From Miniphocaeibacter halophilus (GTDB lineage Bacteria > Bacillota > Clostridia > Tissierellales > Peptoniphilaceae), in assembly GCF_016458825.1 (NCBI RefSeq), contig NZ_CP066744.1:687001-751000 (forward strand): DNA of 64,000 nucleotides, in the 5' to 3' direction. Shown here piece by piece: positions 6,085-34,531 of the stretch (positions are counted from its first letter, which is position 1; every line of letters begins with the position of its first letter). A program made the position numbers and the translations under genes. Under the pieces are notes generated by a model. The model made no database searches. It was given only the letters and a program-made list of their open reading frames with translations, and was not told the origin of the DNA.

Positions 6085-7236
6085 CTATTTAAATGTAGAC
6101 TTTGCTAAAAGTTCTTTTACCTGTTCATCTGTTAAATCTGAATGATAAAATAATTTATAAAATTCCTTTGTTTCCTTTACCATATCATACTTATAAATAT
6201 CTGGATAAACTAAATTCCCTAACCACTTTATACCTATAATCCTATTTGCATTTGGTGGAGAACCTAACCAATCATATGGTTCGCCTGGAGCTTCATAATA
6301 TTTATTATCTTTAATAGCCTGTAAATCCTTCCAAACAGGATCATTTCCAACTGTATCATAAATACTATCATTTAAAAACATTATTATATTGGGATTCCAA
6401 ACAGCAATCTGTTCCATTGACACTTCCTCCCAGCTTGGACTACTTTTAGAATCGTCTTTATAAACATTTTCAGCTCCAATAAAATTAATTACCTCTGCAT
6501 GAATACTACCTTCTGAGTTAGTTTGTAAACCGGAATCTCCTCTACCGTAGTAGACAGTAATTTTATCCTTAATAGTTTCTCTTTTTTCTTTTACATCTTC
6601 TAAGGTTTTTTCTATATATTCAGCTTGTTCATTAGTACCTTCTTCTTTGTCTAATAATTTCCCCAAGGTTCTATAAGCATCTGCTGTATTTTCTAACATA
6701 CATTCTACAAATATTACTGGAATATTGGTTTGCTCCTGTAAGCCATCTAAATCCTCTTTCATAGATTCCTTAACTTCACCAACATCAATTATTACATCTG
6801 GCTCTGCCTTTATCATCTCTTCATAATTCATACTGGCATTTTTACCATAAAAGGTTCCTATTACAGGTAAATTTACTAAATCATCTGGTAAATATTTCTT
6901 CAAGCTTTCTGATGGTTCACTTCCCCATCCAACTAGCATTTCCGGTGCTATTGTAAACATCATCATCTGAGCAGGATTACCGGCTACCGCAATTTTAGTA
7001 ATTTTCTCTGGTAGTTGTACCTCCCTACCTATTGAGTCTATTACCTTACCTTTTTCAGCAAATTTAAAAGAATATGAACTATCTGTTTTTTGGGTTTCTT
7101 CTGTGACTTTTGTTTTATCTGTTTCCTTTATTTCACTAGTTGGTTTATTTCCACCATTATTACTACATGCTGTTACTGCAATAACAAACACTAGTAGTAG
7201 CGATAATAACGATAATTTTTTTCTAAAATTTTTCAT
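6085..7236 (-). CDS. Metal-chelate/siderophore-type ABC transporter substrate-binding lipoprotein
   Basis: This 383-residue precursor has a lipoprotein signal (lipobox VTAC) and a Thr/Glu/Lys-rich linker, then a class III (FecB/BtuF/TroA-type) binding fold. The fold starts with VIDSIGREVQLPEKITKIAV, the usual entry strand of this family. A long backbone helix connects the two lobes. It is the last gene of a six-gene operon (permease, ATPase, methyltransferase, FmdE-like, DUF364, binding protein) and starts 3 bases after the previous stop. The family imports iron chelates, cobalamin, haem and metal oxyanions; which ligand applies here is not evident. Confidence 0.85.
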   Translation of the reverse strand: MKNFRKKLSLLSLLLVFVIAVTACSNNGGNKPTSEIKETDKTKVTEETQKTDSSYSFKFAEKGKVIDSIGREVQLPEKITKIAVAGNPAQMMMFTIAPEMLVGWGSEPSESLKKYLPDDLVNLPVIGTFYGKNASMNYEEMIKAEPDVIIDVGEVKESMKEDLDGLQEQTNIPVIFVECMLENTADAYRTLGKLLDKEEGTNEQAEYIEKTLEDVKEKRETIKDKITVYYGRGDSGLQTNSEGSIHAEVINFIGAENVYKDDSKSSPSWEEVSMEQIAVWNPNIIMFLNDSIYDTVGNDPVWKDLQAIKDNKYYEAPGEPYDWLGSPPNANRIIGIKWLGNLVYPDIYKYDMVKETKEFYKLFYHSDLTDEQVKELLAKSTFK

Positions 7237-7239
7237 ATT

Positions 7240-7989
7240 TTACTCCTTATTTTTTAAACTAACCATGTTCCCATATTTGAAAAACTCTCTATGACGTCCT
7301 GAGTTTATCGTATTAATTACTCCATCTTTATTTTCTACAATAAAGCCTGACAAATCACTTATGCCATATTTAAATAATATTGGTGTTATTGGCGTACTCG
7401 GTCCAACCATTATTACCTTCTTGCCTTGACTAAGTTCAATTAATCGTGGGAATGTTTTATTTACAATAGTTGATGAAGTTATAAATACATAATCGGATTT
7501 AGGTAGTAAATACTCACACGCTGAATCAGGATAATCTCCTTTTCTTGGATTTCTTTCAATTATATATAAATTACAAATATCCTTTATTTGTTTTTCTAAA
7601 AATGGAAAATGTCCTATTACAGAAACATCCTTTCCTTTTACTATTTCCCTGTATACATCAAAAGCATCTTTATTACTAAAATCAACATTGTTTTCTTTTG
7701 CCTTTTTAAAAGTATTATAATATGTATTTACTGCTGCAAGCCCTAATGAACTTTCTCTAAAATTCCAGGATTTAATAAGTTTAGCTACATCTTTTAACTC
7801 TTTTCCAATTAATGATTTATTAAAGCTATATTCTATTGAGTCAATATTAATGGTCATTCCTCAACCAAGATTTTCATCGCTTTTAATCCAACTCCAATGT
7901 CTACCTATAAAATAATCCCTTACAATTAAATTAGAAGGAATATTTTCTATTAATTCATCATAAATATCAAAAAAATCAAATTTTCTCAT
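7240..7989 (-). CDS. DUF4213-DUF364 putative heavy-metal-chelation protein with an in-frame TGA
   Basis: The full frame starts at ATG 7989, which has GGAGAA 7 bases upstream and overlaps the FmdE-like gene by 14 bases. It runs 249 codons, the usual length for this family. Codon 43 (7863-7861) is TGA; 206 codons follow without another stop. Residues 1-42 contain the DUF4213 features (IYDELIENIPSN, GRHWSW); the rest is the Rossmann-like DUF364 domain, with GHFPFLE, GDYPDSACEYLLP and VGPSTPITP. A known DUF364 structure pairs an enolase-like N-domain with a Rossmann domain and was proposed to bind metal. TGA falls at x of a G-x-G turn. Nonsense mutation, sequencing error or selenocysteine are all open. 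ATG 7857 just after TGA has poor ribosome-site spacing. Confidence 0.75.
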
Positions 7990-8521
7990 AATATTGTTCT
8001 CCATTACATGCTTTACAAATAGTTCTATTTCCCTTTATTATTTCATTACCGTCTAATATTTCCTCATGACAAATACTACACTTTGCAACTTTACATGGAG
8101 GTCCTGGTAAGTCTTCTTTTTTTATGTTCAACTTTACTTCTTCAATATTAAACAGGTCTTTATCTGAAAATCTATTAAAAAACTCTACAATATCCTCTCC
8201 TTCTTTCGCATATTCATTAAATTTTTTATAAATCCTAAAGGACTTCTTAGTTCTAATATCAAAAAAAGTTGCTGCCATTTTACCAAAGGATTTGACCTTT
8301 AAGGTTCTTTTTCCTATCTTACATCCTGTTACCGTTCCAATTGCATCAGCTAAACATCTGTCGGTTTCAATATACACAATTAGATCCTTATAGTTTTTAG
8401 GCTTATCTATTTCCAATAGCTTAAGTCCTAAACGTGCCATTCTTACACCTAGAACTTGACCAGAACATAAATGACCATGATAATTAGAAGCCTCTTTTAA
8501 ATCTTCGTAAAAATTATTCAC
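7976..8521 (-). CDS. FmdE-like protein with C-terminal zinc-ribbon
   Basis: This 181-residue protein belongs to the FmdE family (named after formylmethanofuran dehydrogenase subunit E, often found without that enzyme). The N-terminal domain has the metal-binding HGHLCSG motif near residues 15-21, then ETDRCLADAI and VTGCKIGKR. The C-terminus carries four cysteines in two pairs (CSICHEE and CKAC), a zinc-ribbon. It starts at GTG with AGGTGA upstream, between the methyltransferase and DUF364 genes. Likely role: binding or handling the metal or chelate brought in by the ABC transporter; this is inferred from context. Confidence 0.85.
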   Translation of the reverse strand: MNNFYEDLKEASNYHGHLCSGQVLGVRMARLGLKLLEIDKPKNYKDLIVYIETDRCLADAIGTVTGCKIGKRTLKVKSFGKMAATFFDIRTKKSFRIYKKFNEYAKEGEDIVEFFNRFSDKDLFNIEEVKLNIKKEDLPGPPCKVAKCSICHEEILDGNEIIKGNRTICKACNGEQYYEKI

Positions 8522-8527
8522 TAATAT

Positions 8528-9211
8528 TCACCTGCCTATTACAACTATTCCTATATTTTTATACTTAGGTAAGTAATAAGGATATTTTTTATTGTCTATG
8601 TTTATTAATTTTCTTTTTATATTATTTTCGTCTATTTTAATACTACTGTATGAATTATAATATTCCTTAGCTTCTTTAAGACTTTTTAAGGGTTGACCAA
8701 ACTCCCCATTGTAAATAAATTTTTTATAATCTATTTTTCTATCCTGTAAAATTATTTCAACATCCTCTATTTTTTGTTTTTTAAAATCATATAATCCTTT
8801 TCTTTTACCTGTATTTTTAATTATTACTAAAGTATTACATCTACTTGTTAAAAACTCTAGATTATTATGCATATCTAAAAAATGACTTGCTATAATACAA
8901 TCAACAAATTTCTTTTTGCTTAATAATTTTTTATAATCTGTATTTATTGTTTTTATATTAGTAATATTTTTTTCTAGTATTATTTTATTTAGCTTTTGTA
9001 AAACCTCTTTACTGGTGTCTATACAGTATATTCTTTTAGAATATTCTGATAAACTCATAGCTAAATATGATAAGCCACAACCAATATCGTAAATGGTTCT
9101 TTCTTTTCCTATTATTTCTATTAATTTTTTTGCCAAGCCTTTGTTGAATAAAGTAAACTCCGACGCTCTTTTATAAAGCTTTATTTTTTCTTCTGTCCAT
9201 GCAAAACTCAT
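8528..9211 (-). CDS. SAM-dependent methyltransferase-like protein of the metal-chelate operon
   Basis: The 227-residue protein has a class I methyltransferase core: motif I IYDIGCGLSYLAMSL near residues 40-54, an acidic end of strand 2 (IYCIDTS), and a later hydrophobic strand. It overlaps the ATPase gene by 4 bases (ATGA), so the two are translationally coupled. Its place between the ATPase and FmdE-like genes suggests that it modifies an imported chelate or a related ligand. The substrate is unknown and no second domain is visible. Confidence 0.75.
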   Translation of the reverse strand: MSFAWTEEKIKLYKRASEFTLFNKGLAKKLIEIIGKERTIYDIGCGLSYLAMSLSEYSKRIYCIDTSKEVLQKLNKIILEKNITNIKTINTDYKKLLSKKKFVDCIIASHFLDMHNNLEFLTSRCNTLVIIKNTGKRKGLYDFKKQKIEDVEIILQDRKIDYKKFIYNGEFGQPLKSLKEAKEYYNSYSSIKIDENNIKRKLINIDNKKYPYYLPKYKNIGIVVIGR

Positions 9212-9987
9212 TTTTTATACTCCGGTATTAACATAAATTCTTCCCTGCCATTATATTTCAACTTTTCTATATGGAGATTAATATTATATATTTTTGATAA
9301 AACCCCCTCTGTCAATACTTCTTTAGGATTTCCTTTTATTAATATCCTCTTATTATGAAGTACTAATACTTCATCAAAGAACATATATGAAAACTGGGGA
9401 TGATGAGTTGATTGTATAATAGTGTATCCTAAGCTAGCTAATTCCTTGGACTTGTTTAATATTAAAATTTGATTGCCGTAATCTAAATTAGATGTTGGTT
9501 CATCCATTACAAGAACTTTTGCGTCCTGCATTAATGCTCTAGCAACTAAAACAAGTTGTCTTTCACCACCAGAAATCTCCTTATAACCTCTATTGGCAAG
9601 ATGAGAAATTCCAAGTAGCTTTAGTTTTTCGTAGGCGTTATACTTTTCCTCTTTACTTACTCCTGTAAATTTATTTGCCCTAGTATTTGCTCCCATTTCT
9701 ACAACATTAAGTACCCTATGGTTAAAGGTTGGATAATGGGACTGAGGAATATAGGCAATTAACTTTGCTCTTTCCAAAGGATTCAATTTGTTAATTTCAA
9801 TGTTATCAACTAAAACCTCTCCCTTTGTAATATTCAACATACCAAATATTATTTTAAATAAGGTTGTTTTACCCGCTCCATTTTTTCCTAATAAACCTAA
9901 AACAGTACCTTCTTTTACCTTAAACGAAATATTTTCAAGTACTAACTCTTCATTATAAGCAAAGGATAAATTCTTTATTTCTAACAT
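9208..9987 (-). CDS. FecE/BtuD-type ABC transporter ATP-binding protein
   Basis: This 259-residue ABC ATPase has Walker A GKNGAGKTT near residue 35, Q-loop IPQSH, signature SGGERQL and Walker B VLVMDEPTSNLD followed by the switch His (STHHP). It starts immediately after the permease stop and pairs with it as the inner-membrane importer of the metal-chelate system, in the FecCD/BtuCD class. Confidence 0.92.
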   Translation of the reverse strand: MLEIKNLSFAYNEELVLENISFKVKEGTVLGLLGKNGAGKTTLFKIIFGMLNITKGEVLVDNIEINKLNPLERAKLIAYIPQSHYPTFNHRVLNVVEMGANTRANKFTGVSKEEKYNAYEKLKLLGISHLANRGYKEISGGERQLVLVARALMQDAKVLVMDEPTSNLDYGNQILILNKSKELASLGYTIIQSTHHPQFSYMFFDEVLVLHNKRILIKGNPKEVLTEGVLSKIYNINLHIEKLKYNGREEFMLIPEYKK

Positions 9988-10968
9988 TTAATCGTAACCT
10001 TTCTTAAAAATTAAATATAAAAATAATGGTGCACCTATAAAAGATGTTAAAATGCCAATTGGTATTTCAGAAGTAGCAACAGTTCTGGCAATATTATCTA
10101 TAATCAATAAAAAAGTCGCTCCTACTAAACCCGATGTTGGTACAACAAATCTATAATCATTTCCTACTAATATTCTAGAAAAATGTGGAATTATTAACCC
10201 TACCCAACCAATCATTCCTGTTATAGAAACACAAGCAGAAGTCATTAAAGTAGTTGATACAACTACCAATAATCTAACTACTTTTACATTTACACCCATG
10301 GTTAAAGCCTCTTCCTCTCCCATTGTAAGTAGGTTCATCCTCCATTTTAATATCATAGAAATAACTATTCCCAATGTTACTGGAGGTATTATTAGTTTTA
10401 AATCCCCTATTTTAGTTGATGCTAAAGACCCCATTAACCAATAGGTAATAGAAGGTAGCGTGTTGTCAGTATCGGCAATTAATTTAATAAAGCTAATTAG
10501 GGCAGAAAAAATAGAACCTATTGTCATTCCCGATAAAACCAAACCTAGAATTCTATCTATTTTAAATTTTAAGCTTACAAGATATGTAATAGTTACAGCA
10601 ATTATTCCCATACTAAATGCTAAAAAGGAAGTGGTAGAATATCCTAAAGTGAAAAACAGCCCCAGTGCTGCTCCAAATCCTGCACCTTGACTAGCTCCAA
10701 GAATGTCAGGTGAAACCATTGGGTTTTGAAATAAAGCTTGGTAGTTTGAACCCGCTATTGATAAGGCTGCTCCAACAAAAACCGCAGCTATAATTCTAGG
10801 AGCTCTTATTTGTGTAATAATCGTAATAATTTCCGATGGGATGTTTTCTATATTTCCATTAAAAATCGACAGTAAATATTTAAATAATTCTTTAGGATAA
10901 ATAGGATATCTTCCTATTGTAAAGGATATTATTATTAAAATAATCAAAAAAATAAATAGTAGATACAT
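9988..10968 (-). CDS. FecCD/BtuC-type ABC transporter permease
   Basis: This 326-residue polytopic permease has the family segments PRIIAAVFVGAALSIAGSNYQ and NPMVSPDILGASQGAG, and a coupling-helix region near TMGVNVKVVR, with about nine to ten hydrophobic helices. It is the first gene of the operon. The ATG at 10968 has no ribosome site at normal distance. Instead GGAGGG (11004-10999) lies just before in-frame ATT/ATT/ATA codons, and a start there would add residues such as S-K-R-E-K-K-I, a typical FecCD N-terminus. A non-AUG start, or a lost start codon, is therefore likely. Confidence 0.88.
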   Translation of the reverse strand: MYLLFIFLIILIIISFTIGRYPIYPKELFKYLLSIFNGNIENIPSEIITIITQIRAPRIIAAVFVGAALSIAGSNYQALFQNPMVSPDILGASQGAGFGAALGLFFTLGYSTTSFLAFSMGIIAVTITYLVSLKFKIDRILGLVLSGMTIGSIFSALISFIKLIADTDNTLPSITYWLMGSLASTKIGDLKLIIPPVTLGIVISMILKWRMNLLTMGEEEALTMGVNVKVVRLLVVVSTTLMTSACVSITGMIGWVGLIIPHFSRILVGNDYRFVVPTSGLVGATFLLIIDNIARTVATSEIPIGILTSFIGAPLFLYLIFKKGYD

Positions 10969-33690: not shown

Positions 33691-34531
33691 TTTCTAAATC
33701 CTCTTTTCTTCCGTATAGCTTTTGTTTATTAACTTCTTCAATTTTTGATTTTTCAATATATCTTTTCTTTTGTTTATTATTAATAATAAATACAAATATC
33801 GCTACAATAAGTAAAAAAACAAAGTATAGTATCATTACGGCACTTGCTAAATGTCCATTTTCATTCATTCTTCTCATCATATATATTCTTATAGTTTCAA
33901 ATCTTCCACCTATAAGTAAATTCGTTAACATATATTCTCCAAAAGATGCTGAAAAAACCATTAAAAACACCAGTGTAGTACCTAATCTAATATTAGGTAT
34001 TATTATTTTTGTTACAATCTGTACCATAGATGCACCTAATGTTGATGCTGCATCTATCATTTCCCCTATATTAATTAATTTAAGTTGATTATTAATTCCC
34101 AAATATGTTATAGGTAGTAATGTTATAAATAATGCTCCTACTAAAACAATAAACATAGGAATACTCAACATACTATATGTTCCAAGTAAAGCAGTTACAA
34201 GTATTACTCCCGGTATGGCATAGGGAAGAAGAACTATGGATTGTAAAATCCTATCAACTTTAGGAAAATATAATCGTACCAGTATTAATGTAGGTATCAT
34301 TATAATTAAAATCACCATTGATGTTACAAGTCCCAGTACAAAAGATCTTGCGACTGCTTGAATAAAGGCAGTATCTTTAAATAATTCTAAAAACCATTTT
34401 AAGGTAAAGTCCTTTGGTAAAATACTATTATCCCATTTTGTAGATGTACTATATAAAAATGTACCTATTATAGGTATTATGAAATAAATCCCAAAAATTA
34501 TTAATGGTATTTTTCTAATATTCTTTTTCAA
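33674..34531 (-). CDS. ABC transporter permease (second) of the importer operon
   Basis: A 285-residue permease of the PotC type with six predicted helices and the cytoplasmic EAA-like loop DAASTLGASMVQIVTKIIIP. The C-terminal tail is charged. The start is TTG with AGGAAG upstream, overlapping the other permease gene by 17 bases; its own end overlaps the ATPase gene by 17 bases. It forms a heterodimer channel with the neighbouring permease. Confidence 0.88.
   Translation of the reverse strand: MKKNIRKIPLIIFGIYFIIPIIGTFLYSTSTKWDNSILPKDFTLKWFLELFKDTAFIQAVARSFVLGLVTSMVILIIMIPTLILVRLYFPKVDRILQSIVLLPYAIPGVILVTALLGTYSMLSIPMFIVLVGALFITLLPITYLGINNQLKLINIGEMIDAASTLGASMVQIVTKIIIPNIRLGTTLVFLMVFSASFGEYMLTNLLIGGRFETIRIYMMRRMNENGHLASAVMILYFVFLLIVAIFVFIINNKQKKRYIEKSKIEEVNKQKLYGRKEDLENVFNS

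Follow-up and report, generated by a model that had tools for sequence, protein, structure and literature searches.

The interrupted DUF4213-DUF364 gene

Does the in-frame TGA in a DUF4213-DUF364 gene of Miniphocaeibacter halophilus specify selenocysteine, separate two working pieces of a gene, or mark a gene that is broken, either in the cell or only in the assembly? The window analyzed here is a 64,000 bp stretch of a 2,394,777-base, one-contig genome. On its minus strand the frame at 7240..7989 (read from 7989 to 7240) has 249 codons plus an end stop, and its sole internal stop is a TGA at codon 43 (bp 7863-7861). When this TGA is read through, the protein matches DUF4213 at residues 10-90 (60.6 bits) and DUF364 at residues 108-239 (132.6 bits), both above the Pfam curated cut-offs (23.5 bits for PF13938 and 23 bits for PF04016). 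Both domains are thus recovered on read-through, confirming the initial annotation's description of a frame that is intact but for codon 43 and has family sequence on either side of it. By these matches, and by its similarity in sequence and fold to PDB entry 3L5O, it is a putative heavy-metal chelation gene; it is the only DUF4213-DUF364 gene in the genome, and it lacks the uninterrupted frame of that family.

The start at 7989 sits 14 bases within the preceding FmdE-domain gene and has a GGAG upstream, so the ribosome site and gene overlap that had been ascribed to it are both present; an additional in-frame ATG 15 bases upstream of 7989 corresponds to the first ATG of the closest relative's gene. 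The accompanying idea, that the gene is designed to give a full-length product, is valid for its ancestor.

The next methionine codon, Met45, lies three bases past the stop (TGA-GGA-ATG) and opens a 205-aa frame (7240..7857, minus strand). This frame contains all of DUF364 and only model positions 42-74 of 75 of DUF4213 (29 bits), and would correspond to a restart product without the first half of DUF4213. It might be imagined from this arrangement that the gene now functions in two parts, with the stop of a 42-residue leader coupled to a restart at Met45 that gives a functional, shorter DUF364 protein with a complete domain. However, the GAGG before the ATG is only one base away from it, which we judge too near for a normal ribosome site, the truncation removes two conserved glycines (Gly29 and Gly42) along with strands that belong to the pocket domain, and no homolog that was examined is built in this way. 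We therefore regard such an organization as very improbable.

TGA is a regular stop elsewhere in this DNA, as had been proposed: among the 212 open frames that are 300 codons or longer it ends 15, and the adjoining FmdE gene ends in TGA as well.

Gene neighborhood

The DUF364 gene lies in an operon-like run of minus strand genes, in the order FecCD-type permease (9988..10968), ABC transporter ATPase of the heme/corrinoid/siderophore type (9208..9987), SAM methyltransferase-like gene (8528..9211), FmdE-domain gene (7976..8521), DUF364 gene and periplasmic-binding-protein-like lipoprotein gene (6085..7236). The last of these genes has its own AAGGAG site and an intact frame. The location in a metal-chelate operon agrees with the genes found and with the role in metal-chelate uptake or handling that is proposed for the family (PMC2954201). 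Among 47 loci of relatives the neighbors include a similar ATPase in 26, FecCD in 20, a binding protein in 20, FmdE in six and a methyltransferase in two, counts in which weak ATPase and binding-protein matches are included and for which several loci are truncated by contig ends.

Residue 43 in homologs and in the protein structure

The closest relative of the gene is found in a metagenome-assembled genome, Gallicola sp. AS08sgBPME_230 (G001; L013/L027, DUUN01000251.1), where the FmdE, methyltransferase and binding-protein genes are in the same order. Its DUF364 protein is 87% identical to that of the window, but its frame is unbroken and has TTA (Leu) at codon 43. Across 88 homologs aligned with the window gene, residue 43 is Leu in 29, Ile in 15, Ala in 13, Val in ten, Ser in eight, Met in six, Thr in four and Phe in three; it is Cys in none. 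An earlier alignment with 59 rows that have a residue at this site (one a duplicate) concurs. The comparison with homologs that had been recommended to distinguish Cys from Leu thus returns Leu as the commonest residue and never Cys.

Cysteines do occur nearby, at position -2 in 15 of the 89 alignment rows and at +1 in nine of them, and we considered a register shifted by two columns that would pair the Cys of the SCGL motif of distant families with codon 43. It was rejected; the GLAMT of the subfamily aligns to G-stop-GMT, and 88 of the 89 rows conserve Gly42. DUF4213 or protein searches covered three overlapping sets of 61, 291 and 398 genomes and found matches in five, eight and 60 of them, respectively (the window's own genome included); among these matches, that of the window itself is the only one with an internal stop.

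An AF2 model of the read-through protein, in which Cys stands for codon 43, has a pLDDT of 92.4 and combines an enolase-N-like with a Rossmann-like fold; its TM score to 3L5O, the structure of Dhaf4260 (PMC2954201), is 0.92. The read-through sequence matches 3L5O with an E value of 1.9e-54 (39% identity), and the two proteins also share domain order and metal-transport gene neighbors. Dhaf4260 differs in having Leu where the window has TGA, and its signature Arg42 aligns to Ile47 of the window protein. Codon 43 had been described as the variable residue of a G-x-G turn. The residue does vary, always being hydrophobic or small, but in the model it lies within a beta strand (residues 41-45) rather than in a turn; the crystal paper calls the GXG stretch a loop and locates its counterparts of these glycines, Gly37 and Gly39, at the pocket (PMC2954201).

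Selenocysteine

M. halophilus has the machinery to insert selenocysteine (Sec). A search for selA, selB and selD, which the initial annotation had advised, found all three as well as a tRNA-Sec (68.4 bits); selD contains one UGA, and grdA and grdB each have one UGA at the Sec position (the names SelA, SelB, grdA and grdB were assigned by reading of the sequences). The genome thus truly decodes UGA as Sec in grdA, grdB and selD, and the window gene resembles these three in having a single in-frame UGA flanked by coding sequence. Moreover, the frame past the TGA is fully intact, which would fit a recoded codon as well as a base error, and codon 43 lies beside the proposed active-site pocket (PMC2954201). 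Reading of codon 43 as Sec, or some other recoding, would add a new selenoprotein to the DUF364 family.

The evidence from relatives points the other way. In grdA, grdB and selD, Sec is a known state of the family, whereas neither a Sec nor a Cys form is present among the DUF364 homologs examined; the absence of Cys from all 88, the Leu of the closest relative and the lack of a second UGA among the DUF4213 matches leave the selenocysteine option unsupported in spite of the Sec machinery. According to PMC1794560, Sec mostly derives from Cys at redox sites, GrdA being an exception that has no Cys forms. In the literature collection searched, no paper mentions more than one of DUF4213, DUF364 and selenoprotein, and PF04016 and PF13938 do not appear in the main text of a 2026 selenoproteome review.

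Folding of the RNA downstream of the TGA is weak. The 50 nt that follow codon 43 fold with -2.3 kcal/mol, and the corresponding values for the Sec codons of grdA, grdB and selD lie between -7.3 and -8.0. A short TTGAG/CTCAA stem across the TGA had been noted as present but not convincing as a SECIS element, an assessment with which its energy (-3.0 kcal/mol; z -0.25 against shuffled sequences) agrees; from reading of the relative's sequence, the stem is not kept there. In a crude hairpin scan the null was as stable or more so in 90% of cases for the DUF364 gene, which puts it at the weak end, but in 47% for grdA and 41% for selD, so that these real Sec genes look average. When fitted to the bSECIS model with its -7.5 limit (PMC13188914, section 5), the DUF364 gene reaches +1.4 kcal/mol at best, but the real Sec genes also miss the limit (grdA gives no fit, grdB -6.0 and selD -2.1), and a missing SECIS is not counted as proof here.

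Taken together, we consider it very unlikely that codon 43 is read as Sec or otherwise recoded; most likely it reflects either a nonsense allele of the ordinary kind or an error in the base sequence. The particular case in which Sec has been newly set at a former Leu site by the pocket, with neither a Cys step nor a standard SECIS, is more doubtful still; if true, it would give the DUF364 family its first selenoprotein and exemplify a direct change from Leu to Sec. In a genome that uses Sec, finding UGA in frame within a well-kept gene is insufficient for calling a selenoprotein, and it is the residue of the relatives that decides.

Two further features were seen. The downstream hairpins of grdA, grdB and selD (L075:53-1875 and L097) depart from the published bSECIS consensus, and shortly after the grd operon there is a CRISPR-like array with 31 copies of a ~30-base repeat at ~65-base spacing (L075:6205-8200; G000:C1 ~805,200-807,200).

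A possible assembly error

If the TGA were a base error, codon 43 would be a sense codon in the living cell and the gene there would be intact. The one-contig assembly does contain frameshifts at homopolymers in conserved genes. The single-copy, essential alaS gene changes frame after a run of eight T (L091:2630-2780; G000:C1 ~1,982,700), trxB of the grd (glycine reductase) operon is frameshifted at an A run (L009:16421-17361; G000:C1 ~796,420-797,360), and close to another A run an alpha/beta hydrolase-like gene probably falls into two frames (L082:9139-10195), which amounts to ~2-3 frameshift errors in a sample of 509,002 bases. The splitting of essential genes at homopolymers points to uncorrected long-read indels, and with alaS itself frameshifted, any gene that looks broken in this assembly should be verified before it is believed. 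The scan for frame breaks flagged 63 of 233 neighboring gene pairs, most of which (by eye; 44 of the 63 were inspected) are ordinary close genes that have no simple ribosome-site motif. The scan also flagged an IS3-type OrfA/OrfB pair, which is present twice and has overlapping frames (L084:11538-12883 and L094:4197-5398); this overlap is the known layout of a programmed shift in such elements.

These frameshifts lend the base-error option some weight, as does the intact and constrained state of the rest of the DUF364 gene. Errors of the homopolymer type, however, give indels more than T-to-G substitutions. According to PMC12007338, most long-read errors are indels at homopolymers, and substitution errors tend to introduce G or C behind a short homopolymer; the latter pattern would be fitted by codon 43, where T-to-G would have occurred after a T. 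On the other hand, a random substitution in the DUF364 coding sequence produces a stop in just 5.7% of cases, and if the substitution rate equaled the indel rate only ~0.1-0.2 false stops would be expected in the whole sample (a rough figure, based on 2-3 events).

Within the window's first 40 kb, about 36 kb could be aligned with G001. No frameshift was seen in this part, which speaks against a base error, and the DUF364 gene is the only truly broken gene. Seven of the 50 G001 frames with a match were flagged, namely two for DUF364 (overlapping loci), four antisense frames that on reading lie inside real genes (two of them being one frame counted twice) and one in which the stop is upstream of the real start. 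The last, whose stop falls near 33,700 of the window, was at first a candidate for a second broken gene and was rejected for that reason. When 40 window frames were conversely searched in G001, none was flagged. On balance, a base error in the assembly is the second most likely explanation, but rather unlikely.

A probable recent nonsense mutation and its likely consequences

Codon 43 is probably the site of a recent nonsense mutation of a Leu codon in an otherwise ordinary DUF4213-DUF364 gene, as seen in one genome assembly. A single base change converts TTA to TGA, so that the intact gene of the close relative is one base from this stop; the TTA there, and Leu as the commonest residue among homologs, favor this one of the origins that had been suggested for the TGA. 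In comparison with G001, dN/dS of the DUF364 gene is 0.092 overall (0.115 for codons 1-42, 0.084 for codons 44-108 and 0.084 for codons 109-249), and that of its neighbors is 0.097 (FmdE), 0.167 (methyltransferase) and 0.084 (binding protein); these are pairwise values from two sequences, in which changes are not assignable to either lineage. Because both halves of the gene are equally constrained (dN/dS ~0.1) and the neighbors are alike in this respect, the lesion appears to be recent. The gene is dispensable in this group; its distribution is patchy, with matches in two of the three genomes of the genus (the third has none) and in five of 61 genomes searched, its own included.

Under a nonsense mutation, translation of the full protein would terminate at 42 residues. 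Reinitiation at the ATG three bases farther on could yield a product of 205 residues in which the Rossmann-like domain is retained but the pocket-lining N-terminal domain lacks its first helix and its first strands. Such a product would probably be inactive, since the glycines that match Gly37 and Gly39 are at the pocket (PMC2954201). The remainder of the operon is intact, and the cell has therefore probably lost only the DUF364 step of metal-chelate uptake or handling.

Another break was observed elsewhere in the genome, in a GNAT-like acetyltransferase frame (L011:3759-4196) that has an internal TAG and from which the middle seems to be missing; this gene has likely decayed.
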